Source: Pelosinus fermentans DSM 17108 (GTDB taxonomy: Bacteria; Bacillota; Negativicutes; DSM-13327). From it: a DNA stretch of 64,000 nucleotides. A program made the translations under genes and the position numbers. The stretch covers positions 3,621,501-3,685,500 of the forward strand of contig NZ_AKVN02000001.1 in assembly GCF_000271485.2 (NCBI RefSeq), in the 5' to 3' direction. Shown here one piece after another: positions 20,829-33,905 of this stretch (position 1 is the first letter of the stretch; each line of letters starts with the position of its first letter). The notes beneath the pieces were generated by a model. The model was not told the origin of the DNA. It ran no database searches and saw nothing but the letters and a program-made list of their open reading frames with translations.

Positions 20829-22085
20829 TTAATTAAATAGTGTGAAAATTTTGTATATCACATAGTGAATTACGTTACCACCTTGGTCAATACTAGAAAT
20901 CGTCGTTGCACCCGCTGGCATTTTAAAATGAGCATCTACTGCCATTTGCGTATGGAATGCTGCAACATCAGTCGCCATGTATAATGACATTCCAATTACA
21001 ACAGCTCCAACAAGAACCGAATGAACGATATTGCCTCTAGCTGCTCCTACGATAAAGCAGACGATAAAGGGAATGGTTGCCAAATCACCAAAAGGTAATA
21101 CATTATTTCCTGGTAAGACAACTGCTAAGAGGATTGTAATCGGAACTAAAATTAGGGCTGTAGCGATTACGGATGGATGCCCAATTGCAACAGCAGCATC
21201 GAGTCCGATATAAATATCTCTATCGCCAAATCTTTTGCTTAAGAATTCTCTGGCAGATTCAGCAAGCGGGATAAGACCTTCCATTAAGATCTTAACCATT
21301 CGAGGCATCAACACCATAACGCCACCCATTGCTATACCAACTTTTATGGTCTGACCTGCTGGATATCCAGCTAGTGCACCTAGTACAACTCCTAAAAATA
21401 CTCCCATGAAAAGTGGTTCACCAAATACCCCAAATCTTTTTTGAATGGTTTCAGGATCTGCATGTAAATCTTTAATAATTGGGATTTTCTGTACCAATTT
21501 TACAAGAGGAATACCAATTGCATAGGATACAGTACTACCAGTTGGAACAGAAATACCAGGTAGATCAAAATACTTTTCCAGCATTGGCGCTGTCCAGTCA
21601 GCAATTTTTAAGACAATAATTTCAAAAATAACTGCTGCTAGCAACCCTTGTACAAGGCTTCCAGTTGCTGAATATACAAAGGCTCCCATAAAAGTGAAAT
21701 GCCAATAATTCCAAAGATCAATATCCATTGTTTTTGTAGTTTTGGTAACTAACATAATGACATTAACCAATAAACCTAATGGAAGAACAAATGCTGCAAT
21801 GGGAGACGCCCATGCTATACTTGCAGCTCCTGGCCAGCCAATATCAATGATATTTAGCTGCACCCCAAACCTTGCTACCATACCTTGTGCTGCTGGTGCA
21901 AGATTCGAAACCAGTAAATCGACCACTAAAAAGATACCTGTAAAACCTACGCCAATCGTCAAACCAGAACGAAAGGCTTTACTTGCCGGCTGACCAAATG
22001 CTACTCCCAGCAAAAACACTGCAACTGGCAGAATGACCGTTGGTCCTAGCCCTAGAAAGGCCTGAAAAATTTGAACTACATCCAT
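20829..22085 (-). CDS. PTS galactitol-family permease, EIIC
   Basis: 418-residue membrane protein with about ten hydrophobic segments and galactitol-type IIC motifs (GLTIGVGFTGIFLVVDLL near residue 45; GLDAAVAIGHPSVIATALIL in the last third). ATG with GAGGAGG upstream. It is a paralogue of the operon A IIC but clearly divergent, which implies a different substrate. The operon's two polyol dehydrogenases and pentose-phosphate enzymes point to a pentitol (arabitol, xylitol or ribitol) or galactitol. Confidence 0.87.
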   Translation of the reverse strand: MDVVQIFQAFLGLGPTVILPVAVFLLGVAFGQPASKAFRSGLTIGVGFTGIFLVVDLLVSNLAPAAQGMVARFGVQLNIIDIGWPGAASIAWASPIAAFVLPLGLLVNVIMLVTKTTKTMDIDLWNYWHFTFMGAFVYSATGSLVQGLLAAVIFEIIVLKIADWTAPMLEKYFDLPGISVPTGSTVSYAIGIPLVKLVQKIPIIKDLHADPETIQKRFGVFGEPLFMGVFLGVVLGALAGYPAGQTIKVGIAMGGVMVLMPRMVKILMEGLIPLAESAREFLSKRFGDRDIYIGLDAAVAIGHPSVIATALILVPITILLAVVLPGNNVLPFGDLATIPFIVCFIVGAARGNIVHSVLVGAVVIGMSLYMATDVAAFHTQMAVDAHFKMPAGATTISSIDQGGNVIHYVIYKIFTLFN

Positions 22086-22108
22086 AATAATACCTCCTCA
22101 GCTTTTTA

Positions 22109-22408
22109 TTATTTCTTAAGTTCTTCTAAGATCTGCTCTTTCAATTTATCTAATCCTATTCCAGTTAAGAAAGCTCTTGCATTAATGATTGGGAAGGGAT
22201 ATTCTTTGGAAACAATCGTAGTGGTAACAAGCAAACTTGCCCGTGATTCATATGCAGGAACTTCTGTCACTTTACATTGAACAATTTCAACTTGAATATT
22301 ATTTTCTTTAGCCATCTTCTCAATGGCATCCGATACAACAGTAGATGTTGCAATTCCGGTCCCACAAGCTACTAATACAGTTTTTTTCCCTTTTTTTACT
22401 TCACTCAC
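22109..22408 (-). CDS. PTS galactitol-family EIIB
   Basis: 99-residue EIIB with the phosphocysteine C15 in VLVACGTGIATSTVVSDAIE. GTG 22408 is chosen because GGGAGG lies 8 nt upstream and this avoids overlap with the IIA stop; a GTG three codons earlier is an alternative. It passes phosphate from the IIA to the IIC-bound substrate. Confidence 0.87.
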   Translation of the reverse strand: MSEVKKGKKTVLVACGTGIATSTVVSDAIEKMAKENNIQVEIVQCKVTEVPAYESRASLLVTTTIVSKEYPFPIINARAFLTGIGLDKLKEQILEELKK

Positions 22409-22409
22409 T

Positions 22410-22895
22410 TTATTCACCTCCCTTCACATTGTTTAAATTAAGTCGTTTACTTACCTCTTCTTTGATTTTCACTTCGCTTTCCTCGTTTGCTAAATATAAC
22501 AGAATCTCTTCATCTTGAAAGATTCCCATTAAACTTTGCAGCATTTTTAGCTGGGAGTGACTATCATGCATCGCCAGCATAAAAATTAATTTCACAGGAG
22601 TTTTTTCTGTCTCCTCACCCATAATGCCAAAATCTACAGGTTCCTTTAGAACTCCAACACTAATGGCTGACTGGTTAACATGTTCAATATCTGTATGTGG
22701 TATGGCAACACCACAGCCCTTGGTCGGCAGCCCTGTTGCAAATTTTTTCTCTCTTGCAATAACGGCGTCGGCATAACTTTCTTTTACAAAACCTTTCTGA
22801 TATAAGTTGGCTGCCATATGCTTTAAAATATCTGAACTATTTTCACCTTCTACATTTCTTATCACTAATGTTTCATCAAATTTAACATGATTCAT
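22410..22895 (-). CDS. PTS EIIA, fructose/galactitol type
   Basis: 161 residues. The phospho-histidine is H67 in CGVAIPHTDIEHVNQS. An open frame extends to 23006, but that stretch overlaps the activator gene and lacks a ribosome site; ATG 22895 has AGGGAGG 9 nt upstream. The start overlaps the activator's last codons by 14 bp, implying translational coupling. Confidence 0.87.
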   Translation of the reverse strand: MNHVKFDETLVIRNVEGENSSDILKHMAANLYQKGFVKESYADAVIAREKKFATGLPTKGCGVAIPHTDIEHVNQSAISVGVLKEPVDFGIMGEETEKTPVKLIFMLAMHDSHSQLKMLQSLMGIFQDEEILLYLANEESEVKIKEEVSKRLNLNNVKGGE

Positions 22896-25818
22896 GTAAT
22901 AGAGCCTCCCTAATTTCTTCTTCTGATTTTGCTTGCTGCATTTGTGCAATAAATTTTTCACTTTTAAATTTGTTATATAAAAACCGTACTCCATCTTTAC
23001 CATCAATATCTAAGGCCAATAAACAAATCAATGATACCGTGTTCTCATGATCCCAAGAAATCGGCACCGCCGCTTTGGCAATTACAATTACAGGATGATT
23101 TACATAACTGCTGTCAGCATGGGGCAAAGCAACTTCTTGATTAATTACATAACTCCCCATATTTTCCCGCTCCATAACAGCCTCATAATATCCTTCTTTG
23201 ACATAACCTTCCGCTAACAGGCTGTTACAAATACGCTGCAGCACTTCTTCTTTCCCGCCTACTTCTGGCAGCATGATAAACTTTGCCTCTCGTACGACAT
23301 GAGGAATCAGTCCGCTGTAACTTTTCATACGATAATGATTGTTACATTCAATTAAGTTCATAATTTGATTTTTTCCTGTTTCGTTAAATAATGCTTCTAA
23401 AGATAAGAAAGGAATGCCGTGGTATTTAGGATCAATACTGCCTATGATCGCAATGATTTCATAGGTATTGATGGTATCTTGGATTTGCTTATGAAGATCA
23501 CGTTTTCCAATAACCCCCATATGGATTAATTCTATGTCATTTAGTTTTTCACCAAATATTTTCTTCAAATGACTTCCGCACTGAAGAGCTACCCCTTCTC
23601 CGGTCAAGCAAACGGTAATAATTGCTTTTTTACGTTTTAAAACTTTATGATCCACTCGCGTTTTCTTAAAAGTATAATTTAAATTTTCTACCGCATACAC
23701 CACATCTTTAATATGGGATCCAGGTAAAATACTTCTGCGAATGGCTTCGATTACCATTACTGTATCCACACGGTCAATCGTCTCGATCTGGATACCTGTT
23801 CTTTCTGAAATGATTTCTCCAAATGTCAGTAAAGAACCCATATCCACCAGCATTAATACGCCTTTACCTTCGTCAGTTGCTTGTATGATCGTAGCTAAAC
23901 GTTCTAACACTTCACTAGGATTCTCATCTAAGGTCATGACTACCGCTTTGCCATGATTCATATTTAGCAGCTTATTCGCAATTTCCAGCATGCCAACACT
24001 TACATTGCCATGAGTAACAACCAGAATACCAACTTTACCTTCTTTTTCTTGTTTATTTCCTCTAAGATAGAGTGCAATAAAACCAACTTCGTCTTCTGGC
24101 AAATGAATTCGATAGTATTTTTCAATATGTGCGATCATTTCTTGGGCTACAGCATATTCAATGCTGTATTTTCTTTTGATTTCTTCTAAGTTGGGGTTAA
24201 TAATTTCTCTTCCTTGCTTAATACGCTGAAATGTAGCATTCAAATGAATGGCTAAACAATAGAATATGGAATGATCCATCTTTCCTAATGTCATTTCAGC
24301 AATTTTGAGGAGTTCTTCCACAAGGGAAATAATCTCAACTCCCACAACTTTAGCAATCTCATCAGGAGATAAAGGATGCAAATTATCTTTAACATGTTTG
24401 ATAACATTCTGTAATTTGCGTTCAATCTCAATCCCGATAATACGATTAATTTCTTCTGTATTTATTCCTTGCTTTAGATATTCGGTATACGTTTTTTCGA
24501 TATCGCTATAGAACTCTTTTGGAAAACTATAAATGTCATTTTCAAGCTCAGCGATTTTTTTATACTTTTTAGGGCTAAATCTAAAATCTTGCCAGACGAG
24601 GTTTTCAATTTCATCCCGCATACTTTTTATTTTCAAAAGTCCCTTTTTAACATGAAGATTTAAATCTCTCACATCAATTTTCACACAGTCTTCTTTATCC
24701 ATAACGTAAGTTAAAAAGCTTTTGGCACAAGCTACTTGAATATCACTTTTTAGTTGTCCAATATTCCCATAACACTCATACAGCAGGTAGGATTTCATTA
24801 CATCTAAAGCCACATGAATTGGTGCATTCATTCGCGTTGATTCATAACCAAAGAAATTCTTAACTAATTTCAATCTTTCATTTAAGGGCCGTTTACTTAA
24901 AGGCGGAACCTCAATGATCATGGGAATTCGCCTTTTAAAGGTTGCTAATAATGTAGTCTCAATATTTTCTGTAGTGGCAGCAATGAGCTGCACAACTGCT
25001 TTTCTAGTAAAATCAGACTCTCCTAACCTACGAAAGCACCCCTTATCGATGAGTTGAAACAGCATTTCTTGTCCTTCTGATGTAAGGCGATGTACTTCAT
25101 CTAAAAATAAAATTCCGCCGTCTGCCTGCTCGATTAATCCTCTCTTATCTTGCACGGCTCCTGTATAAGCACCTTTTACGCTCCCAAACAGGTGAGATAT
25201 TAACAGTTGTGAATTTTCGGCGTAATCGGCGCAGTTAAAAACAATAAACGGAGATTCTTTGGTCAGCCTGCCGCTTTCGATGGAGAATTTGTACATAGAC
25301 TCTGCCAACTCGCTTTTGCCTACACCTGTTTCCCCTAATATCAAGCAATGCAACCCATTTGGCGGATACAACACTGCAGCTTTAGCTTGCTGTATTTGTA
25401 TTTCTAAACTTCCTTTTCCACCAATCAGATTTTGAAAGGCTTGAATTTCCCGACTCTCTTCTTGCTTTTTATTACCATCTTCCAGCAGCGAAACCTCATC
25501 TATGATCTGTTTATTACCTCGCGAACCTCTGATTTCTTCTAAATATTTGACTACCAAGTAGCGAGATAATTTATATCCGCTATTTTGCAGCATCTTCGTC
25601 AGTTCACGGTAGGAAATATTCTCATTTTTTTGTAATATCTGAGATATTTCCTCGCAAATATAGATCTTCTTTCGTTCCCGAGAGTCTGCAATTTTTAGTT
25701 CCTTGCGCAGTAGCGTCATATATTCTCTGCTTACTAATAAACTTTCACCTAATTGCAGATCCGTTAGCGGTTCTTTTTTATTTTCTTTTAAAAGGATACT
25801 GCGGAGTTTATTTTTCAC
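22882..25818 (-). CDS. LevR-like sigma-54 activator with PTS domains (operon B)
   Basis: 978 residues with the same architecture as the operon A activator: N-terminal helix-turn-helix region, AAA+ with GETGVGKS (162-169) and sigma-54 loop GAYTGA (216-221, a tolerated variant of GAFTGA), Walker B ILFLDE, a PRD near 480-590, an EIIA-Man-like domain (VGILVVTHGNVSVGM), an EIIB-like region (ITVCLTGEGVALQ) and a C-terminal EIIA-Fru-like domain with VALPHADSSYVNHP. It should activate the -24/-12 promoter directly upstream of its own gene, and so the whole of operon B. Confidence 0.9.
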   Translation of the reverse strand: MKNKLRSILLKENKKEPLTDLQLGESLLVSREYMTLLRKELKIADSRERKKIYICEEISQILQKNENISYRELTKMLQNSGYKLSRYLVVKYLEEIRGSRGNKQIIDEVSLLEDGNKKQEESREIQAFQNLIGGKGSLEIQIQQAKAAVLYPPNGLHCLILGETGVGKSELAESMYKFSIESGRLTKESPFIVFNCADYAENSQLLISHLFGSVKGAYTGAVQDKRGLIEQADGGILFLDEVHRLTSEGQEMLFQLIDKGCFRRLGESDFTRKAVVQLIAATTENIETTLLATFKRRIPMIIEVPPLSKRPLNERLKLVKNFFGYESTRMNAPIHVALDVMKSYLLYECYGNIGQLKSDIQVACAKSFLTYVMDKEDCVKIDVRDLNLHVKKGLLKIKSMRDEIENLVWQDFRFSPKKYKKIAELENDIYSFPKEFYSDIEKTYTEYLKQGINTEEINRIIGIEIERKLQNVIKHVKDNLHPLSPDEIAKVVGVEIISLVEELLKIAEMTLGKMDHSIFYCLAIHLNATFQRIKQGREIINPNLEEIKRKYSIEYAVAQEMIAHIEKYYRIHLPEDEVGFIALYLRGNKQEKEGKVGILVVTHGNVSVGMLEIANKLLNMNHGKAVVMTLDENPSEVLERLATIIQATDEGKGVLMLVDMGSLLTFGEIISERTGIQIETIDRVDTVMVIEAIRRSILPGSHIKDVVYAVENLNYTFKKTRVDHKVLKRKKAIITVCLTGEGVALQCGSHLKKIFGEKLNDIELIHMGVIGKRDLHKQIQDTINTYEIIAIIGSIDPKYHGIPFLSLEALFNETGKNQIMNLIECNNHYRMKSYSGLIPHVVREAKFIMLPEVGGKEEVLQRICNSLLAEGYVKEGYYEAVMERENMGSYVINQEVALPHADSSYVNHPVIVIAKAAVPISWDHENTVSLICLLALDIDGKDGVRFLYNKFKSEKFIAQMQQAKSEEEIREALLHESC

Positions 25819-25843
25819 ATCTAACCCTCCTGTCTTTTATTAT

Positions 25844-25859
25844 TGCAAAAACCGTGCCA
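25844..25859 (-). promoter_or_regulatory. sigma-54 (-24/-12) promoter of operon B
   Basis: On the minus strand TGGCACGGTTTTTGCA matches TGGCAC-N5-TTGCA perfectly, 25 nt upstream of the activator start. Two CAC(T4-5)GTG dyads lie 80-160 bp further upstream. Confidence 0.87.
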
Positions 25860-26270: not shown

Positions 26271-29216
26271 TTACCCTTCTTCTATAGTATTCTTTCGCCG
26301 CTCCATTTTAATAATCTCAATTAGATGACAAATTTCTTCATCATTTACATTCACAGTGAATTGTTCTTCCAGAGCGTTGCTTACTTTTTTTAACACTGAA
26401 TATTCAAGAGGATGCTCAGCAATAAATGCAGCGGTTTCTGGATAACTGATTCCTGCATTAGTAAGCAAGCGTTCCACCATACAGGCAGAATGTACTAACA
26501 TGCGTACCAGTCCAGAAGAAGAAAACTCCACTTGCAATTCATCTTCCAGCTTTCTAATGCAGATCATAAGAGTATCCATCACTTTACGCGGATTCACAAA
26601 AGTCAGAAATTCATCCAACATGCCTACAACCATACCACGCATCACTTCCCAGTCCATGCCCCTGTCTGTATAACGATCTGCAATATCAGAAGCCTTTAAA
26701 CCATCCGTAAGCAGACGGCGCAGTTCACTGCCGGCTCCCCCCTGCATAAGCTCTTCAATGGCAATATGAGGTCTATCCTCCATTTGAGGATCAATACTAC
26801 CTACACTAGCTACGATATCATAGGAATGCTGCAAAGACATCAAACGAGTTTGTAACATTTCCTGATTGCCAGCTTCTACAGCAATTACACGAATATTAAA
26901 TAACTGCCATTGATTTAACAGTTTTTCTAATAAGCCCTTAATTTTGGCCGCTGCTCCCTGCCCTGTAAGGCAAGTAGTCAAAATAGCTTTATCTTTACCA
27001 TTCATAAAATCAGTCGGGTTATTTGCCTGTACTACCGTTTGAACCATACTACGTGCTGTCCAAGCAGACCGATAGACAATATTAATATCATTTTTCGGTA
27101 ATATGGCTTTATGTAATACATGAAGTACCATTAATGTACTTACCATTTCTACACTCTTTACCATGATACCCGTTCGATTCGTAAGAGCTTTCGCTACACC
27201 TGATAATGATCCCATATCAACCAGCAGAATTATGCCTTTCCCTTGGTCAATTTCTTTTGCCACCTGAACGGCTTTTTCTATTGCCCAATCCACATTGGCT
27301 TCCAGAGGCATATCAATTGCTTTGGCATGGGTAACTCCTAGCAGCTTATTTGCAAAATCGACCATACTGGTAGCAGTCGAATTACCATGTGTAATCACCA
27401 AAACACCAACTTTTCGTTCTTCCCTGCCTTGGCGGTCGTCAAAGGTTGCCAGCATTAAAGCAATAAATCCGATTTCATCCAACGGGATCAAGATGCCCAT
27501 CTGTTCACCAATACACTGCGCCATTTTTTCTGCTACAATATATTCCTTAGGATGCTGCTCAGCCACAGATCTAACATTAGGATTTACAATGGGCAAACCG
27601 CTGCGAATTCGTTCTACCGTAGCAGCAATATGAATGGCTAAGGCATAATATAATCTACGGCTCAGTGCTTTTCCCATTTTTTCAGCTAAGCTGCAGGCTA
27701 GGTCAAAAACACTGAGAAATTCTTGTGGCAAAATACTTTGTAAATATTCCTGGGATATTTCCAGTTGTTCAGGACCTAATCGCTGGAAATAGTTTTCAAA
27801 ATCCATCTCAATGCATTGAATAATCTCTGCCTGTCCAATTCCTTGGGACTTAAGAAACTGCATGCGCTCACTAATGGTCTGATAAAAATTCTTTGGCAAG
27901 CTCCGATCTGCCTCTTCATCCGCCGCTGTTCCATTTGGCTGAATGAACAACTCACTGCCTAATGTACATAAAATTTTGCTAGTCTCCAAACGGGCTTGAG
28001 GATCATAGACAATGGCTTGTTTGATCTTAGGCGGCAGCTCTTCGTAAACCAGACGAACAGGTGCAACCTTATCCCCCCGATGCAAGAAAGCTTTTGCACA
28101 TATTAGCTGTAAGTCATTACGCAGCTGCCCAATATTTCCCTGGCATCGGTATAACAGCAATGCCCATAAGGCTTCCTGGCTTACAATCAGCTTTGATTGA
28201 ATATGTACTGCTTCACGTGCCAGTAAAAATTTGATGAGTTCAAACCGTTCGTGTAATGGTCTCATGGATAAATCAGGCAGCGATATGACCACAGGTATAC
28301 GGCGCAAGAATGTTTTTAATAATGCAGAATCTGGATTCTCGGTAGTAGCTGCGACTAACCTTATGGTAACATGGCGAATTTTATCAGTATCACCCATGCG
28401 GCGAAAATCACCACGGTCTAGCAGATAAAACAACATTTCCTGTCCTTCTGGCGGCAAGCGATGTACTTCATCTAAAAATAACATGCCCCCATCCGCTTTT
28501 TCCACTAAGCCTGCTTTATCTTTATCAGCCCCAGTAAAAGCGCCTCGTACATGACCAAAAAGCTGGGACATCAAAAGCTGAGGATTATTTGCATAGTCAG
28601 CACAGTTAAATACAATAAACCGTCCACCATGAGCAATTTTCCCCTGACTGCAGGCAAATCTGTACATATATTCAGCAAATAAGGTTTTTCCCACACCTGT
28701 AGAACCAACTAAAAGCGTATCTAAACCTTTTGGGGGATATAGAGCCGAAGCCTTTGCCTGCTCAACTGCGACTTTTAAACTATCTTGGGCACCTATTAAG
28801 CCATCAAACGAATCATAATTCTGAGCATTGTCATATAAGGCATTATCATTTTTCAGACTCGTGGTATCAGATACCTCTCCCGTCCTTCCTGATTGGGAAA
28901 ATTCATTTGCAGCCAACTCTTCGATTTGCCGCTGGTGCCGTACCACTTCAGGAACCTTTCCCTTCAGGGCGGGATAGAGACTTTCTATCCATTTCACTGT
29001 GACATAATAAGTAGATCGACTTACTAATTTTACTACTAACTTCTCCCGATGTAAGGCATTTAAATCACTGCTGACATTACTACGAGAAAATCCCGCTAAA
29101 ATTGCCACTTCTTCTGCTGTAAAACCTAATGGTTTATGCTGCTGCATCATATTCTTATCTAGTTTTTTCGTGCATAATTCATCTAAAATTTCTAAAATTT
29201 TTAATTGACGTTTCAT
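26271..29216 (-). CDS. LevR-type sigma-54 activator (for operon C)
   Basis: 981 residues. A winged-helix-like N-terminus (GFTAEEVAILAGFSRSNVSS) is followed by AAA+ with GSTGVGKT (171-178) and GAFTGA (225-230), PRD1 near 470-590, an EIIA-Man-like domain (VGVLVITHGNSTATSM), an EIIB-like region (LTTCLTGQGAAAK) and a second PRD at about 845-975 (VRMLVHSACMVERLL). Unlike the two other activators it ends in PRD2, not an EIIA-Fru domain, which is the classical LevR layout. It is separated from the operon C genes by its own promoter and presumably activates the sigma-54 promoter at 33733-33748. Confidence 0.88.
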   Translation of the reverse strand: MKRQLKILEILDELCTKKLDKNMMQQHKPLGFTAEEVAILAGFSRSNVSSDLNALHREKLVVKLVSRSTYYVTVKWIESLYPALKGKVPEVVRHQRQIEELAANEFSQSGRTGEVSDTTSLKNDNALYDNAQNYDSFDGLIGAQDSLKVAVEQAKASALYPPKGLDTLLVGSTGVGKTLFAEYMYRFACSQGKIAHGGRFIVFNCADYANNPQLLMSQLFGHVRGAFTGADKDKAGLVEKADGGMLFLDEVHRLPPEGQEMLFYLLDRGDFRRMGDTDKIRHVTIRLVAATTENPDSALLKTFLRRIPVVISLPDLSMRPLHERFELIKFLLAREAVHIQSKLIVSQEALWALLLYRCQGNIGQLRNDLQLICAKAFLHRGDKVAPVRLVYEELPPKIKQAIVYDPQARLETSKILCTLGSELFIQPNGTAADEEADRSLPKNFYQTISERMQFLKSQGIGQAEIIQCIEMDFENYFQRLGPEQLEISQEYLQSILPQEFLSVFDLACSLAEKMGKALSRRLYYALAIHIAATVERIRSGLPIVNPNVRSVAEQHPKEYIVAEKMAQCIGEQMGILIPLDEIGFIALMLATFDDRQGREERKVGVLVITHGNSTATSMVDFANKLLGVTHAKAIDMPLEANVDWAIEKAVQVAKEIDQGKGIILLVDMGSLSGVAKALTNRTGIMVKSVEMVSTLMVLHVLHKAILPKNDINIVYRSAWTARSMVQTVVQANNPTDFMNGKDKAILTTCLTGQGAAAKIKGLLEKLLNQWQLFNIRVIAVEAGNQEMLQTRLMSLQHSYDIVASVGSIDPQMEDRPHIAIEELMQGGAGSELRRLLTDGLKASDIADRYTDRGMDWEVMRGMVVGMLDEFLTFVNPRKVMDTLMICIRKLEDELQVEFSSSGLVRMLVHSACMVERLLTNAGISYPETAAFIAEHPLEYSVLKKVSNALEEQFTVNVNDEEICHLIEIIKMERRKNTIEEG

Positions 29217-29249
29217 TTTTCGCTCTCCTTTAAGACAGCATAAGCTAGT

Positions 29250-29322
29250 AGTCCGCCAAGACTAAAGCTATGGGATGAATATCGCGACAAGAGCACCATG
29301 GATTTAGGCTTGGTGGACTACT
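29250..29322 (-). ncRNA. structured leader of the third activator gene
   Basis: In the 120-nt leader, AGTAGTCCACCAAGCCTAAA and TTTAGTCTTGGCGGACTACT can pair over about 20 bp with two mismatched positions, enclosing a 35-nt loop that holds further short palindromes (CCATGG). It lies between the mapped-by-eye promoter and the AAAGGAG ribosome site. It matches no riboswitch class I know. A remnant of an IS200/IS605-type palindromic end is the alternative. Confidence 0.4.
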
Positions 29323-29337
29323 ATTCATTTCTAGTAC

Positions 29338-29366
29338 ATTATAAAACGTTATAATCTGTAATACAA
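29338..29366 (-). promoter_or_regulatory. sigma-A promoter of the third activator gene
   Basis: On the minus strand TTGTAT (29366-29361), a 17-bp spacer and TATAAT (29343-29338) form a good housekeeping promoter about 120 nt upstream of the activator ATG. This differs from the two other activators, which sit behind sigma-54 promoters. Confidence 0.65.
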
Positions 29367-29423
29367 ATTTTTTATGATTTGCTAATTCCAAAAACGCTTT
29401 GCGTCCTTTAAAAACATATAAAG

Positions 29424-29515
29424 CGAACCAAACCGCAGAGGCGCAGAGAACGCAGAGAAAAATTATGATTAGAGTTAGAATATCCCCCTCAGTGCACTCT
29501 GCGTCTCTGCGGTTC
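29424..29515. repeat. dispersed repeat, copy F
   Basis: GAACCAAACCGCAGAGGCGC at the left and CTCTGCGTCTCTGCGGTTC at the right are inverted; this subtype has GCAGAG where others have CAAAGG. It shares the preceding CGTCCTTTAAAA...A block with copy G. Confidence 0.6.
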
Positions 29516-29602
29516 AATCATTCTTTCCTTGCTCTCTTTCACACCAAGCATCCTAATTATATTTTTTCACGTACAAAACTTATAAACTCTGATACTAAAA
29601 AA

Positions 29603-29637
29603 ATAAAAGCATGGTTTTTATATACCGATGCTTTTAT
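29603..29637 (-). terminator. terminator of operon C
   Basis: ATAAAAGCAT and ATGCTTTTAT form a 10-bp stem with an inner GGT/ACC, followed by a T run on the minus strand. It is about 65 nt downstream of the second pfkA. Confidence 0.6.
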
Positions 29638-29703
29638 CGCTTTATCAGACGATCAATTTATGTTATTAGGACTCTAACTCTAACCCGCAGTTTCTTGTCT
29701 TTG

Positions 29704-30666
29704 TTACTTGGACAGTAATGTTGCCAGCCGAAATGTAGAGGTATCAATTGTCCGTTTATGCCCAATGGCATCAACTAAATCAATTGCAACAACTGCACCG
29801 TTCTTCGAACCGAATAATACATTGGATATACCGGAAATCAGGGCCATCACTGCATGTTCTGCTAGTGTACTGGCTAAAATACGATCAAATACACTCGGAG
29901 ATCCTCCTCGCTGTATATGCCCCAATACGGATACGCGGGTATCAAGACCCGTATCCTTAGCAATCTTCTCACCAATGGTTACAGCACTGCCTACACCTTC
30001 TGCCACAACCACAATGCTATATTTCTTCCCTGCATCCCGCGACTTGCTTAACTTGGTGCATAGATCATCTAGATTAACAGTCATTTCCGGAATCAGTATC
30101 TGCTCTGCACCACCAGCAAGTCCAGCGGTCATAGCAATCCATCCTGAGTTTCGTCCCATTACTTCAAGAACCATTACCCGTCCATGTGAAGAAGCTGTAT
30201 CCCGCAGCTTATTAATCGCTTCTACGACTGTATTAATAGCAGTATCAAAGCCAATGGTATAATCCGTCCCCCAAATATCATTGTCGATTGTACCGGGCAG
30301 GCCAACTACAGCAATGCCTAATTCAGATAACAATTGAGCACCTGTAAGAGATCCATCGCCACCGATAATAACTACACCTTCGATTCCTCGGCGTTTCAGA
30401 TTTTCGGCAGCTTTTTGTCGTCCTTCCAACGTTTTAAAAATTTCACAACGCGCAGTTCCTAAAAAAGTTCCCCCCCGGTGCAGAATATCTCCTACTGAGC
30501 GAGATTCCAATTTTACCATGTTATCTTCATACATGCCTGCATAGCCATTGTAAATTCCCCATACTTCTACGCCTTCATGAATAGCTACACGAACAACAGC
30601 ACGAATAGCTGCATTCATACCAGGAGAATCACCGCCGCTAGTCATGACAGCAATACGCTTTAACAT
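29704..30666 (-). CDS. pfkA: ATP-dependent 6-phosphofructokinase (second copy)
   Basis: 320 residues with all PfkA hallmarks: [31 protein letters not shown] and [22 protein letters not shown] 30666 follows GAGGTG by 9 nt. It is the last gene of the IIA-IIB-HPr-EI cluster. A phosphofructokinase transcribed together with general PTS proteins suggests that glycolytic flux and PEP-dependent phosphorylation are set together. Whether this or the operon B copy is the main glycolytic enzyme is not evident. Confidence 0.93.
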   Translation of the reverse strand: MLKRIAVMTSGGDSPGMNAAIRAVVRVAIHEGVEVWGIYNGYAGMYEDNMVKLESRSVGDILHRGGTFLGTARCEIFKTLEGRQKAAENLKRRGIEGVVIIGGDGSLTGAQLLSELGIAVVGLPGTIDNDIWGTDYTIGFDTAINTVVEAINKLRDTASSHGRVMVLEVMGRNSGWIAMTAGLAGGAEQILIPEMTVNLDDLCTKLSKSRDAGKKYSIVVVAEGVGSAVTIGEKIAKDTGLDTRVSVLGHIQRGGSPSVFDRILASTLAEHAVMALISGISNVLFGSKNGAVVAIDLVDAIGHKRTIDTSTFRLATLLSK

Positions 30667-30744
30667 CACACATTCCACCTCTTTCTTGCTAATTCTCCAG
30701 AAAGGGCGAAGACTGCGCTCCGCCCTGCTTTCCTTAGAATGTAA

Positions 30745-32460
30745 TTAAATTTCAAATTGTAAGGCTATTTCTTCTAATCTTTTCTTAATATCAGATGCAG
30801 TACGCAGGCTTAATATATCATCAGCCCATTTTTGCGTCTGCTTTATGTCAAGTTGACGTATACGATGCTTCACTACAGGAACGGCACGCCCGTTCATGGA
30901 TAATTCTGTTAAACCAAGTCCCACTAATAATGGAGTTGCTAAAGGATCTCCTGCCATCTCACCACACATACCTACCCATTTACCAGCTTTTTGTGCAGCT
31001 TTAGCAACATTGCCAATTAAGCGAACGACTGGCGGTTGAAAATAATCACTCAGATATGCTACATGTTCATTCATGCGATCTGCCGCCATTGTATATTGAA
31101 CAAGATCATTCGTGCCAATACTAAAAAAGTCAACCTCTTCTGCCAATATATCTGCAATCGCAGCTGCTGCAGGGACCTCAACCATAATCCCTACTGCCAC
31201 ATCGCTTTTATAAGGAATTCCTTCTTGCGTTAATTCTTTAGCAGCTTCGTTTAATAATGCTTTTGCGCTTAACAGTTCATCAACGGTAGCAATCATAGGA
31301 AACATAATATGCAGATTTCCTGCTACACTTGCGCGCAATAAAGCACGCAATTGCGTTTTAAATACGTCCTGGTACACCATACACAAGCGGATGGCTCGTA
31401 ACCCAAGGGCCGGATTCGCTTCTGGCAATCCGCCAATAAAAGGCAGCTGTTTATCACCACCAGCATCCAGAGTACGAATGACAATCTTTTTATCAGGCAT
31501 TGCTGCAAGTACAGCTTTATAAGATTCTACCTGTTCTTCTTCAGTTGGCACACTGGTTTTATCCAGGAACAAGAATTCAGTACGAAATAAGCCAACACCT
31601 TCTGCACCTGCAGCAATTACTTTTTCCATATCCCCAGGTGTACCAATATTACAAGCTAACTCGATATGATGACCGTCTAATGTCTCGCTGGGCAGATGGC
31701 CAACAGATGCTAAAAGTGCAGCTCTCTCCTGCTCTTTTTTAATACGCAAGCGATAGTCATTTAGTATATCCTCTTCAGGATTTACTAAGACCTCTCCCAC
31801 ATGTCCATCAACAATCACATTATCTCCATTATTTAATTTCTCTAATGCACTGCCAACCCCTACAACAGCGGGTATACCTGCTGCCCTAGCCAAAATGGAG
31901 CTATGAGAAGTCTTTCCTCCTAGCGCAGTAATAAAACCTGATACATAATTTAAGTCAAGAGCAGCAGTATCAGAAGGCAGTAAATCCTGAGCTGCCAAAA
32001 CTCCTGTATAGTTAACTTCTGCTGTACCACCCTGCAATATGCGTACTAAGCGTTTGCCAATATCCTTGATATCAGCTGCTCTCTCCTGCATATATTCACT
32101 ATCAAGACCAGCAAACATCGCAGCAATTTCATTAGCTGCATCTTCTACTGCTGCTTCAGCGCTAGCCTGGTGATTGTCAATATGATTTAAAACGACTTCA
32201 ACAAAAGAAGGATCTGTGACCATTAACTTATGAGCAGCAAAAACTTCTGCCTGCTGTTCTCCCATATTGATTGCTGTACGTTCTTGCAGTATCTCTAGTT
32301 CTTTTTCAGCAGCCTGCTGCGCTGTATAAAAACGTTCTTTTTCAGCTGGGGCCTGTGATGCATCTACCAAGCGACAGAAATCATGTACCGCCTCTTGCAT
32401 ATGCACAATTGTTCCAATAGCAATTCCTGCTGATGCTGCGATTCCTTTTATTTTCCACAT
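30745..32460 (-). CDS. ptsI: PTS enzyme I (phosphoenolpyruvate-protein phosphotransferase)
   Basis: 571 residues, normal for EI. The N-terminal domain carries the phospho-histidine H186 in GGKTSHSSILARAAGIPA; the PEP-binding C-terminal domain has GAEGVGLFRTEFLFLD and later VGMCGEMAGDPLATPLLVGL. It takes phosphate from PEP to HPr. ATG 32460 has GAAGAG 7 nt upstream and begins 4 nt after the HPr stop. This appears to be the only EI in the window, so it must serve all three PTS systems here unless another copy exists elsewhere. Confidence 0.95.
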   Translation of the reverse strand: MWKIKGIAASAGIAIGTIVHMQEAVHDFCRLVDASQAPAEKERFYTAQQAAEKELEILQERTAINMGEQQAEVFAAHKLMVTDPSFVEVVLNHIDNHQASAEAAVEDAANEIAAMFAGLDSEYMQERAADIKDIGKRLVRILQGGTAEVNYTGVLAAQDLLPSDTAALDLNYVSGFITALGGKTSHSSILARAAGIPAVVGVGSALEKLNNGDNVIVDGHVGEVLVNPEEDILNDYRLRIKKEQERAALLASVGHLPSETLDGHHIELACNIGTPGDMEKVIAAGAEGVGLFRTEFLFLDKTSVPTEEEQVESYKAVLAAMPDKKIVIRTLDAGGDKQLPFIGGLPEANPALGLRAIRLCMVYQDVFKTQLRALLRASVAGNLHIMFPMIATVDELLSAKALLNEAAKELTQEGIPYKSDVAVGIMVEVPAAAAIADILAEEVDFFSIGTNDLVQYTMAADRMNEHVAYLSDYFQPPVVRLIGNVAKAAQKAGKWVGMCGEMAGDPLATPLLVGLGLTELSMNGRAVPVVKHRIRQLDIKQTQKWADDILSLRTASDIKKRLEEIALQFEI

Positions 32461-32464
32461 AGTA

Positions 32465-32728
32465 TCACTCTTCCCCAAATTTGTCATCCACTAATTTTTT
32501 CAGGGCTGCACCTGCCTCAGCAGCATCTGGACCATCAATTTTGACAAGTAACGTATCCCCTTTTTTTACCCCTAATCCCATAATACTAATGATGCTTTTT
32601 GCATTACCGTTTTTCCCATCTTTAAATATTAAAATGTTGGATTTAAAGGAAGAAGCTTTTTGTGCGAACATAGCCGCTGGTCTAGCGTGTAACCCCGCCT
32701 GATTTTTAATTTGTAAATTGAATTCCAT
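32465..32728 (-). CDS. ptsH: PTS phosphocarrier HPr
   Basis: 87 residues. The phospho-acceptor is H14 in NQAGLHARPAAMF (canonical His15). The regulatory serine is S45 in GNAKSIISIMGLGVKKGD (canonical Ser46), so HPr kinase control is possible. It passes phosphate from EI to EIIA proteins and to PRD-type regulators. It lies directly upstream of ptsI and 64 nt downstream of the IIB gene. Confidence 0.95.
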   Translation of the reverse strand: MEFNLQIKNQAGLHARPAAMFAQKASSFKSNILIFKDGKNGNAKSIISIMGLGVKKGDTLLVKIDGPDAAEAGAALKKLVDDKFGEE

Positions 32729-32792
32729 GTTTTTTACACAACCTTTCTTTTTGTTAAATATATTATTACACTACAATAGCAGTGGATACCCC

Positions 32793-33269
32793 TTAATTTA
32801 TCTCGAGCATAAGGTCTAGTGGAATATCATGAGGCAATAATTGAATCTGCAAATCAATACCATGTTCATGAAGCTCTTTAAAAGCCTGTTTATCAGTATC
32901 AGATATCGATACAGCTTTTGTCACCGGGGTTTTGCCTTGACTGAAACTCATCCCGCCAATATTGACCTTACTAATCGCTAAGCCATTTTCTACTAAATTC
33001 AATATAGTAGTTGGGTTGGTAGCTAATAAAAGTAACTTTTCTTCTGCAAAAGTGTCCGTTTTCAAGCTTTCTACCCCTTGAATCACATTTAAAACCGAAA
33101 CGTTGATACCAGGAGGTGCTACGGTTTCGAGAAGCATCTTACGAATGAAATCTAACGCCACTTCGTCATCAATCACGACAATACGTTCGATTGGCATGGT
33201 CTTACACCACGCCATAACAATCTGACCATGAATGAGACGATCATCAATTCTTACTAATTCAATTCCCAC
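32793..33269 (-). CDS. PTS mannose/sorbose-family EIIB
   Basis: 158 residues. The phospho-histidine lies in LVRIDDRLIHGQIVMAWC at H14, the conserved site of mannose-class IIB. In normal systems it hands phosphate to the substrate held by membrane IIC and IID proteins; neither is encoded in this operon or elsewhere in the window. It may serve remote permeases or act in regulation. Confidence 0.88.
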   Translation of the reverse strand: MGIELVRIDDRLIHGQIVMAWCKTMPIERIVVIDDEVALDFIRKMLLETVAPPGINVSVLNVIQGVESLKTDTFAEEKLLLLATNPTTILNLVENGLAISKVNIGGMSFSQGKTPVTKAVSISDTDKQAFKELHEHGIDLQIQLLPHDIPLDLMLEIN

Positions 33270-33292
33270 CTAATCTCTTCCTTCTTCTATGG

Positions 33293-33685
33293 TTACTTCA
33301 TGATATCGAAATTACGAATGCCATCATGACCTCCTTTTAAGGCGGCATTTGTTACATTCATCAATTTATCATTCCTGACAGGTAATATTTCTAACAGCAT
33401 GGGCATATTTACACCTGCAACCATCTCAATCCCTGACTGCTGCATTGCCACTATAGCTGCTGCCTGATAAGGGCTTCCTCCTAGTAAATCAACGAATATG
33501 ATAGTACCTTGACCAGTGTCTACGCTTCTTGCGGCTTCTTTAATGCGCAGCTGCAAATCAGCTGTATTTTCACCCGTTGTAAAATTAAGAGATATAACCT
33601 GTTCCTGTTTCCCTGCAATCTCTTCTGCAGTAGTAAGCAAGGCACTTGCGAAACATCCATGTGCAACAATTACCACACCAACCAT
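33293..33685 (-). CDS. PTS mannose/fructose-family EIIA
   Basis: 130 residues. The phospho-histidine is H9 in MVGVVIVAHGCFASALLTTA; FVDLLGGSPYQAA is the conserved second motif. ATG 33685 follows GAGG by 7 nt; an ATG five codons upstream has no site. First gene of operon C, with a sigma-54 promoter about 50 nt upstream. PtsL/DhaM-like signalling proteins share the fold, but the adjacent IIB supports a mannose-class pair. Confidence 0.87.
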   Translation of the reverse strand: MVGVVIVAHGCFASALLTTAEEIAGKQEQVISLNFTTGENTADLQLRIKEAARSVDTGQGTIIFVDLLGGSPYQAAAIVAMQQSGIEMVAGVNMPMLLEILPVRNDKLMNVTNAALKGGHDGIRNFDIMK

Positions 33686-33732
33686 CTTGTGCCCTCGCAT
33701 GTATTTTTATATTTTTATCTTCTTAATATTCT

Positions 33733-33748
33733 TGCAATAATCATGCCA
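33733..33748 (-). promoter_or_regulatory. sigma-54 (-24/-12) promoter of operon C
   Basis: On the minus strand TGGCATGATTATTGCA matches TGGCAY-N5-TTGCA, about 50 nt upstream of the IIA start. The LevR-type protein at 26271-29216 is the obvious activator. Confidence 0.8.
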
Positions 33749-33869
33749 AAACCTGTCTTATTCAAAATAAAAGTTGTACTACAGCTATTTGACAGACAAT
33801 TCCTAGCTTTTCCCCATAGAATGAATTGCTTTTGTTGTTATACCAAACAATACAATCGAACTTGTTTTG

Positions 33870-33905
33870 TTTGTGTTTTAACCGTGTTGTAATTGTGTGT
33901 TTATT
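33870..33905. promoter_or_regulatory. putative enhancer for operon C
   Basis: Three TGTG-containing units (TTGTGTTTTA, CGTGTTGTAA, TTGTGTGTTT) follow at roughly helical spacing 125-160 bp upstream of the sigma-54 promoter. The placement fits activator binding, but this is by inspection only. Confidence 0.3.

Follow-up and report, generated by a model that had tools for sequence, protein, structure and literature searches.

Comparison with related genomes shows that an operon on the minus strand of the Pelosinus fermentans DSM 17108 chromosome is a general phosphotransferase system (PTS) operon descended, on sequence evidence, from a complete IIA-IIB-IIC-IID-HPr-EI-PfkA-LevR transporter by a clean deletion of IIC and IID. 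The operon occupies positions 33748 to 26271 of the 64,000-nt stretch of DNA analyzed here (the window). What was once a transporter seems to have become a sensor, and we consider it moderately probable that the orphan IIA-IIB pair survives as a phospho-input to the adjacent LevR-type activator.

A sigma-54 site heads the operon, and Pfam and NCBIfam matches identified the genes that follow as IIA, IIB, HPr, EI, PfkA, and the activator, LevR1 (Table 1). These matches confirmed the prediction that mannose-type IIA-IIB, ptsH, ptsI, and pfkA occur together without membrane subunits: no mannose-type IIC (EII-Sor) or IID (EIID-AGA) was found in the operon or elsewhere in the window, and the one galactitol-type IIC belongs to a different operon. 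The IIA catalytic histidine and the IIB motif RIDDRLIHGQ were each kept in 11/11 orthologs, and sequence identity to solved IIA and IIB was sufficient for both assignments. In the ortholog alignment, both the active histidine and the regulatory serine of HPr were conserved. The pfkA gene follows EI in every ortholog; in G318, a member of another family with a complete operon, EI and PfkA form a single 903-aa fusion protein (L102 10446-13157). The nearest named relatives of the window were P. fermentans JBW45 and other Pelosinus.

Table 1. Features of the operon and its surroundings, in window positions
Feature	Position	Strand	Support
Candidate upstream activating sequence (UAS) for LevR1, AAAACACAAACAAAAC	33864..33879	-	inferred from conservation
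Sigma-54 -24/-12 promoter, TGGCATGATTATTGCA	33733..33748	-	top consensus score; 63 bp before IIA start
Possible alternative in-frame start of IIA	33700	-	
Mannose-type IIA, orphan	33293..33685	-	EIIA-man PF03610, 1.2e-25
Mannose-type IIB, orphan	32793..33269	-	PTSIIB_sorb PF03830, 1.4e-48
Deletion site, where keepers carry IIC and IID	32729..32792	-	synteny
HPr (ptsH)	32465..32728	-	PF00381, 1.3e-28
Enzyme I (ptsI)	30745..32487	-	TIGR01417, 4.1e-189; N, mobile, and C domains
ATP-dependent 6-phosphofructokinase (pfkA)	29704..30678	-	TIGR02482, 1e-122, above cut-off
Possible sigma-A promoter of LevR1, TTGTAT-17-TATAAT	29338..29366	-	weak; read from sequence
LevR1, LevR-type sigma-54 activator, 981 aa	26271..29216	-	Pfam; NCBIfam DagR-like, 7.1e-170, below that model's cut-off
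Galactitol-type IIC, member of a different operon	20829-22085	-	

Across the whole genome, four mannose-type IIC and four IID genes were found, all outside the window and all in complete IIA-IIB-IIC-IID operons, each with a LevR-like gene nearby. Since these four sets stand against five IIB genes genome-wide, the IIA-IIB of the present operon is the pair without membrane partners. Simple IIB-minus-IID counts were abandoned as proof of orphan status because some intact systems appear to have two IIB genes. A search for orphan IIC-IID genes, proposed with the original prediction, returned none, and relocation of the operon's own IIC-IID was ruled out because every pair belongs to a complete operon. 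Genome searches found no full-length EI gene besides that of the operon, on which the remaining transporters therefore presumably rely. A second general PTS operon with a complete mannose system had been named as a finding that would speak against the prediction. Four complete mannose systems do exist elsewhere, but a second full-length EI does not: the other EI match covers only a short N-terminal part and lies next to HPr in a transketolase operon, which rules out a second general PTS operon.

The history of the operon was reconstructed from relatives. In four genomes, termed keepers, the operon has the same gene order, and IIC-IID separate IIB from HPr: two Pelosinus species (G006 and G008), a second genus of the same family (G002), and G318. 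The six Pelosinus losers (the window genome, G003, G004, G005, G007, and G009) have a short IIB-HPr spacer of 62-64 bp, the end of which (AAAGAAAGGTTGTGTAAA) matches the IID-HPr spacer of the keepers; the upstream neighbors of the operon are also shared among the Pelosinus genomes. The IICs of the four keepers make up a single clade (98% support) that excludes the other sampled mannose systems, as expected of an ancestral IIC, which supports a once-complete operon. A gain of IIC-IID by the keepers is disfavored because this clade follows the operon tree. In the tree of HPr, EI, PfkA, and LevR1, G007 joins the P. fermentans group with 100% support, so one deletion on that stem explains all six losers. 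G096, from a different family, has the order pfkA-IIA-IIB-HPr-EI-pfkA-LevR, also without IIC-IID. It branches far outside Pelosinus, which points to an independent second loss and rules out horizontal acquisition of an already-deleted Pelosinus operon. On these gene orders and trees, IIC-IID were lost at least twice, on the Pelosinus stem and in G096, with IIA-IIB spared each time. The second pfkA copy of G096 lies just upstream of IIA (L103 10642-11607), giving two phosphofructokinase genes in the operon region.

Conservation of the six-gene set in related genomes, a check proposed with the original prediction, extends to the six Pelosinus losers and G096, and the keepers have IIC-IID in addition. 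Two further genomes lack the EII genes in the operon. G314, from another family, has HPr-EI-PfkA-LevR1 without any of IIA to IID and has a separate complete mannose system elsewhere; G001 has HPr-EI-PfkA only. In two other Negativicutes (L110 and L111, from G306 and G289), a PRD-type regulator and additional genes precede HPr-EI-PfkA, an arrangement suggesting that the ptsHI-pfkA linkage is wider than its mannose-type partner. About 30 of 300 EI neighborhoods in the class were examined, and further IIC-IID losses may be found.

The orphan IIA and IIB were intact in the six Pelosinus species, with no disabling mutation and with the catalytic histidines kept. Selection was estimated approximately, by pairwise counting and by protein branch lengths on a fixed tree, and gave dN/dS values among the losers of 0.20-0.51 for IIA (about 0.2) and 0.12-0.25 for IIB (about 0.15), with confidence intervals well below 1. 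For the same genome pairs, dN/dS was 0.02-0.05 for EI, 0.04-0.09 for LevR1, and 0.01-0.15 for IIA/IIB of intact systems; constraint on the orphan pair is therefore 3-4 times looser than on these proteins and far from neutral. Relative to EI, IIA and IIB evolved 4-5 times faster among the losers than between transporter-keeping lineages. Synonymous divergence between G007 and the other losers was about 1.1, and the deletion is older than this split. Neutral drift over half of that divergence would be expected to produce about 4-5 stop codons per gene per lineage, and none was observed. The orphan pair is thus not in plain decay; these rates suggest that part of the constraint went with IIC-IID and that part remains. 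Such partial constraint is expected if IIA and IIB still need to contact HPr and each other, and perhaps LevR as well.

LevR1 has the features of a LevR-type activator: an AAA+ sigma-54 domain with GAFTGA, PRDs, and an EIIA-man domain. The domain order is HTH, AAA+, PRD1, EIIA-man (His-610), a region around Cys-749, and PRD2 (His-909). Cys-749, in the part where LevR-type activators have an EIIB-Gat-like domain, lies in a conserved TTCLTGQG motif, and no Pfam IIB match reached threshold there; His-610 and His-909 are kept and are predicted phosphorylation sites by alignment. In Bacillus subtilis LevR, phosphorylated EIIB inhibits at PRD2 His-869 and phosphorylated HPr stimulates at EIIA His-585 (PMC10864463). 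PRD1, the EIIA histidine, the cysteine region, and the PRD2 histidine were present in every IIA-IIB genome with a readable LevR1; G002 was left out of this comparison, as its contig ends before LevR1. In G314, the only genome observed to have LevR1 without an adjacent IIA-IIB pair, LevR1 ends ahead of the EIIB-PRD2 part and nothing of that part remains downstream, so that the predicted target of phosphorylated IIB is missing. The pattern fits a dependence of PRD2 on IIB, the truncation being that of a single genome.

A sigma-54 promoter at the head of the operon, as predicted, was borne out. The window contains two exact matches to the consensus, against 0.22 expected by chance, and one of them is TGGCATGATTATTGCA. 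This site is identical in all eight Pelosinus genomes, G002, G096, and G314; that of G318 scores one point lower. G001 lacks both this site and LevR1, and among the genomes compared the site is kept wherever LevR1 is kept. Further upstream, the 16 bases of the candidate UAS, AAAACACAAACAAAAC, also occur ahead of the operon in G318, with a near match in G314, both from other families. The genome holds one exact copy of AAAACACAAACAAAAC in 5 Mb and one copy with one mismatch; this rarity suggests a small LevR1 regulon, the UAS motif itself being a candidate. A separate sigma-A promoter for the activator gene, also predicted, did not find the same support: a perfect -10 (TATAAT at 29338-29343) is paired with a poor -35 (TTGTAT), and the consensus scan gave no minus-strand site above threshold for LevR1.

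The explanation that we favor carries over the phosphotransfer chain of EI, HPr, IIA, and IIB and the two LevR inputs by homology. In the ancestor, sugar uptake would have drained phosphorylated IIB and thereby freed LevR PRD2 from inhibitory phosphorylation, and phosphorylated HPr would have stimulated the LevR EIIA domain, as in the B. subtilis scheme. Following the loss of IIC-IID, IIA-IIB would form a soluble phospho-branch off HPr, in which phosphorylated IIB would have no sugar sink and would track HPr phosphorylation, that is, PTS load and the PEP/pyruvate balance. LevR could then set EI, HPr, and PfkA together, up or down, from the sigma-54 promoter, its input being the load on all PTS systems and not one sugar. 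We infer both the PEP/pyruvate sensing and the joint control of PfkA.

The original prediction was that the operon could be a soluble phosphorelay instead of a sugar transporter, and IIC-IID beside these genes in close relatives had been named as a finding that would refute it. That finding was made. That the operon never contained IIC-IID is highly improbable: the gene content of the window alone would fit, but IIC-IID lie in the syntenic position, directly adjacent, in G006, G008, and G002 as well as in the second family (G318), and the IIC tree disfavors a gain by the keepers. What falls is thus the origin, since the operon was once a full transporter. We still favor a regulatory role for the operon once IIC-IID had gone, because the pair is under selection in two deletion lineages and because of the LevR PRD2 pattern. 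Persistence as a fading remnant, in which the mid-operon genes stay in frame mainly for HPr/EI expression and have no important role of their own, is quite unlikely. The relaxed constraint on IIA/IIB after the loss agrees with it; against it stand the absence of disabling mutations in six Pelosinus lineages, dN/dS intervals well below 1, the kept catalytic motifs, and the same outcome in an independent second lineage. The 4-5 times faster evolution relative to EI does imply that less is now demanded of the orphan pair, whose role could be fading.

Alternatively, the orphan IIA-IIB might act in trans as phosphoryl donors to the IIC-IID of another mannose-type system. Four other IIC-IID pairs are available in the genome, and the accessible text of one study documents cross-talk between PTS components in B. 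subtilis (PMC6148471). However, all four systems have their own adjacent IIA and IIB, the former IIC lineage of the operon is distinct from all four present IICs, and G096 keeps the pair though the single IID of that genome is flanked by two other IIB genes. We therefore regard such cross-talk as unlikely. Against the preferred reading of IIA-IIB as an input to LevR, PRD2 could be phosphorylated instead by the IIB of another complete system.

Among known systems, the lev operon of B. subtilis, a mannose-family PTS under LevR and sigma-54, shares IIA, IIB, the adjacent LevR-type activator, the -24/-12 promoter, and a candidate UAS upstream, whereas the Pelosinus operon is without IIC/IID and includes ptsH, ptsI, and pfkA. 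The proteobacterial incomplete regulatory PTS (PTS-Ntr with or without a mannose-type IIA, for example in Brucella), as described in the accessible part of PMC2937029, is likewise a soluble EI-HPr-EII phosphorelay without its own permease. In contrast to PTS-Ntr, the Pelosinus EI has only three EI domains and no GAF domain (its PRK11061 match starts at model position 169); there is no fructose-type IIA-Ntr here, the IIA being EIIA-man, and a IIB is present. The Pelosinus EI presumably also serves real transporters, the output is a LevR activator, and the origin is a separate one by IIC-IID deletion. CelR of B. thuringiensis and Clostridium acetobutylicum shares the HTH-AAA-PRD1-EIIA-EIIB-PRD2 order and the EIIA and PRD2 histidines, but controls a complete cellobiose PTS (PMC10864463). 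The searchable literature yielded no report of this operon, of ptsHI-pfkA operons in Negativicutes, or of the PTS in Pelosinus, and the accessible part of a sigma-54 regulon survey of Clostridiales lists no such regulon.

As a natural experiment, the operon sets the transport and the regulatory roles of mannose-type IIA-IIB apart, and its relatives exemplify three states: the full transporter, IIA-IIB without IIC-IID, and no EII genes. The favored explanation, if true, would illustrate how a transporter can give rise to a regulatory PTS and how an anaerobe's only EI and a phosphofructokinase could come under one load-sensing switch. We tentatively extend this to the Negativicutes: repeated IIC-IID deletion may have turned mannose-type PTS operons into dedicated signaling branches. 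In these, soluble IIA-IIB would inform a LevR activator of the total PTS load, and the activator would set the levels of EI, HPr, and phosphofructokinase; such branches would be a separately evolved counterpart of the proteobacterial regulatory PTS.

Several further observations were made. A galactitol-type PTS set of IIA, IIB, and IIC (20829-25859, minus strand) is headed by a second LevR-like activator (22882-25818, minus strand), whose C-terminal domain is a fructose-type EIIA; the set has a perfect sigma-54 site of its own at 25844-25859, ahead of the activator. The activator gene follows LevR1 in the losers L012, L014, L055, and L056 and is not found there in the keepers L057 and L058. 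An intergenic repeat, ACCGCAGAGGCGCAGAGA, flanks the operon genes (window positions 29432 and 33992) and is present at 63 genomic sites. Most copies before 1.75 Mb are on the minus strand and most of those after 3.2 Mb on the plus strand, and no listed copy falls in the interval, a distribution suggestive of orientation along the replication arms and absence near the terminus. The transketolase operon ends in HPr and a 136-aa stand-alone EI piece (L019 6350-7001; G000:C1 ~1290350-1291000; also L093-L096), a pair conserved in five Pelosinus genomes. The piece covers roughly EI residues 44-160, which we take to be the HPr-binding helical domain; the active histidine (195) is missing from it, and a role as an HPr-binding regulator is possible.
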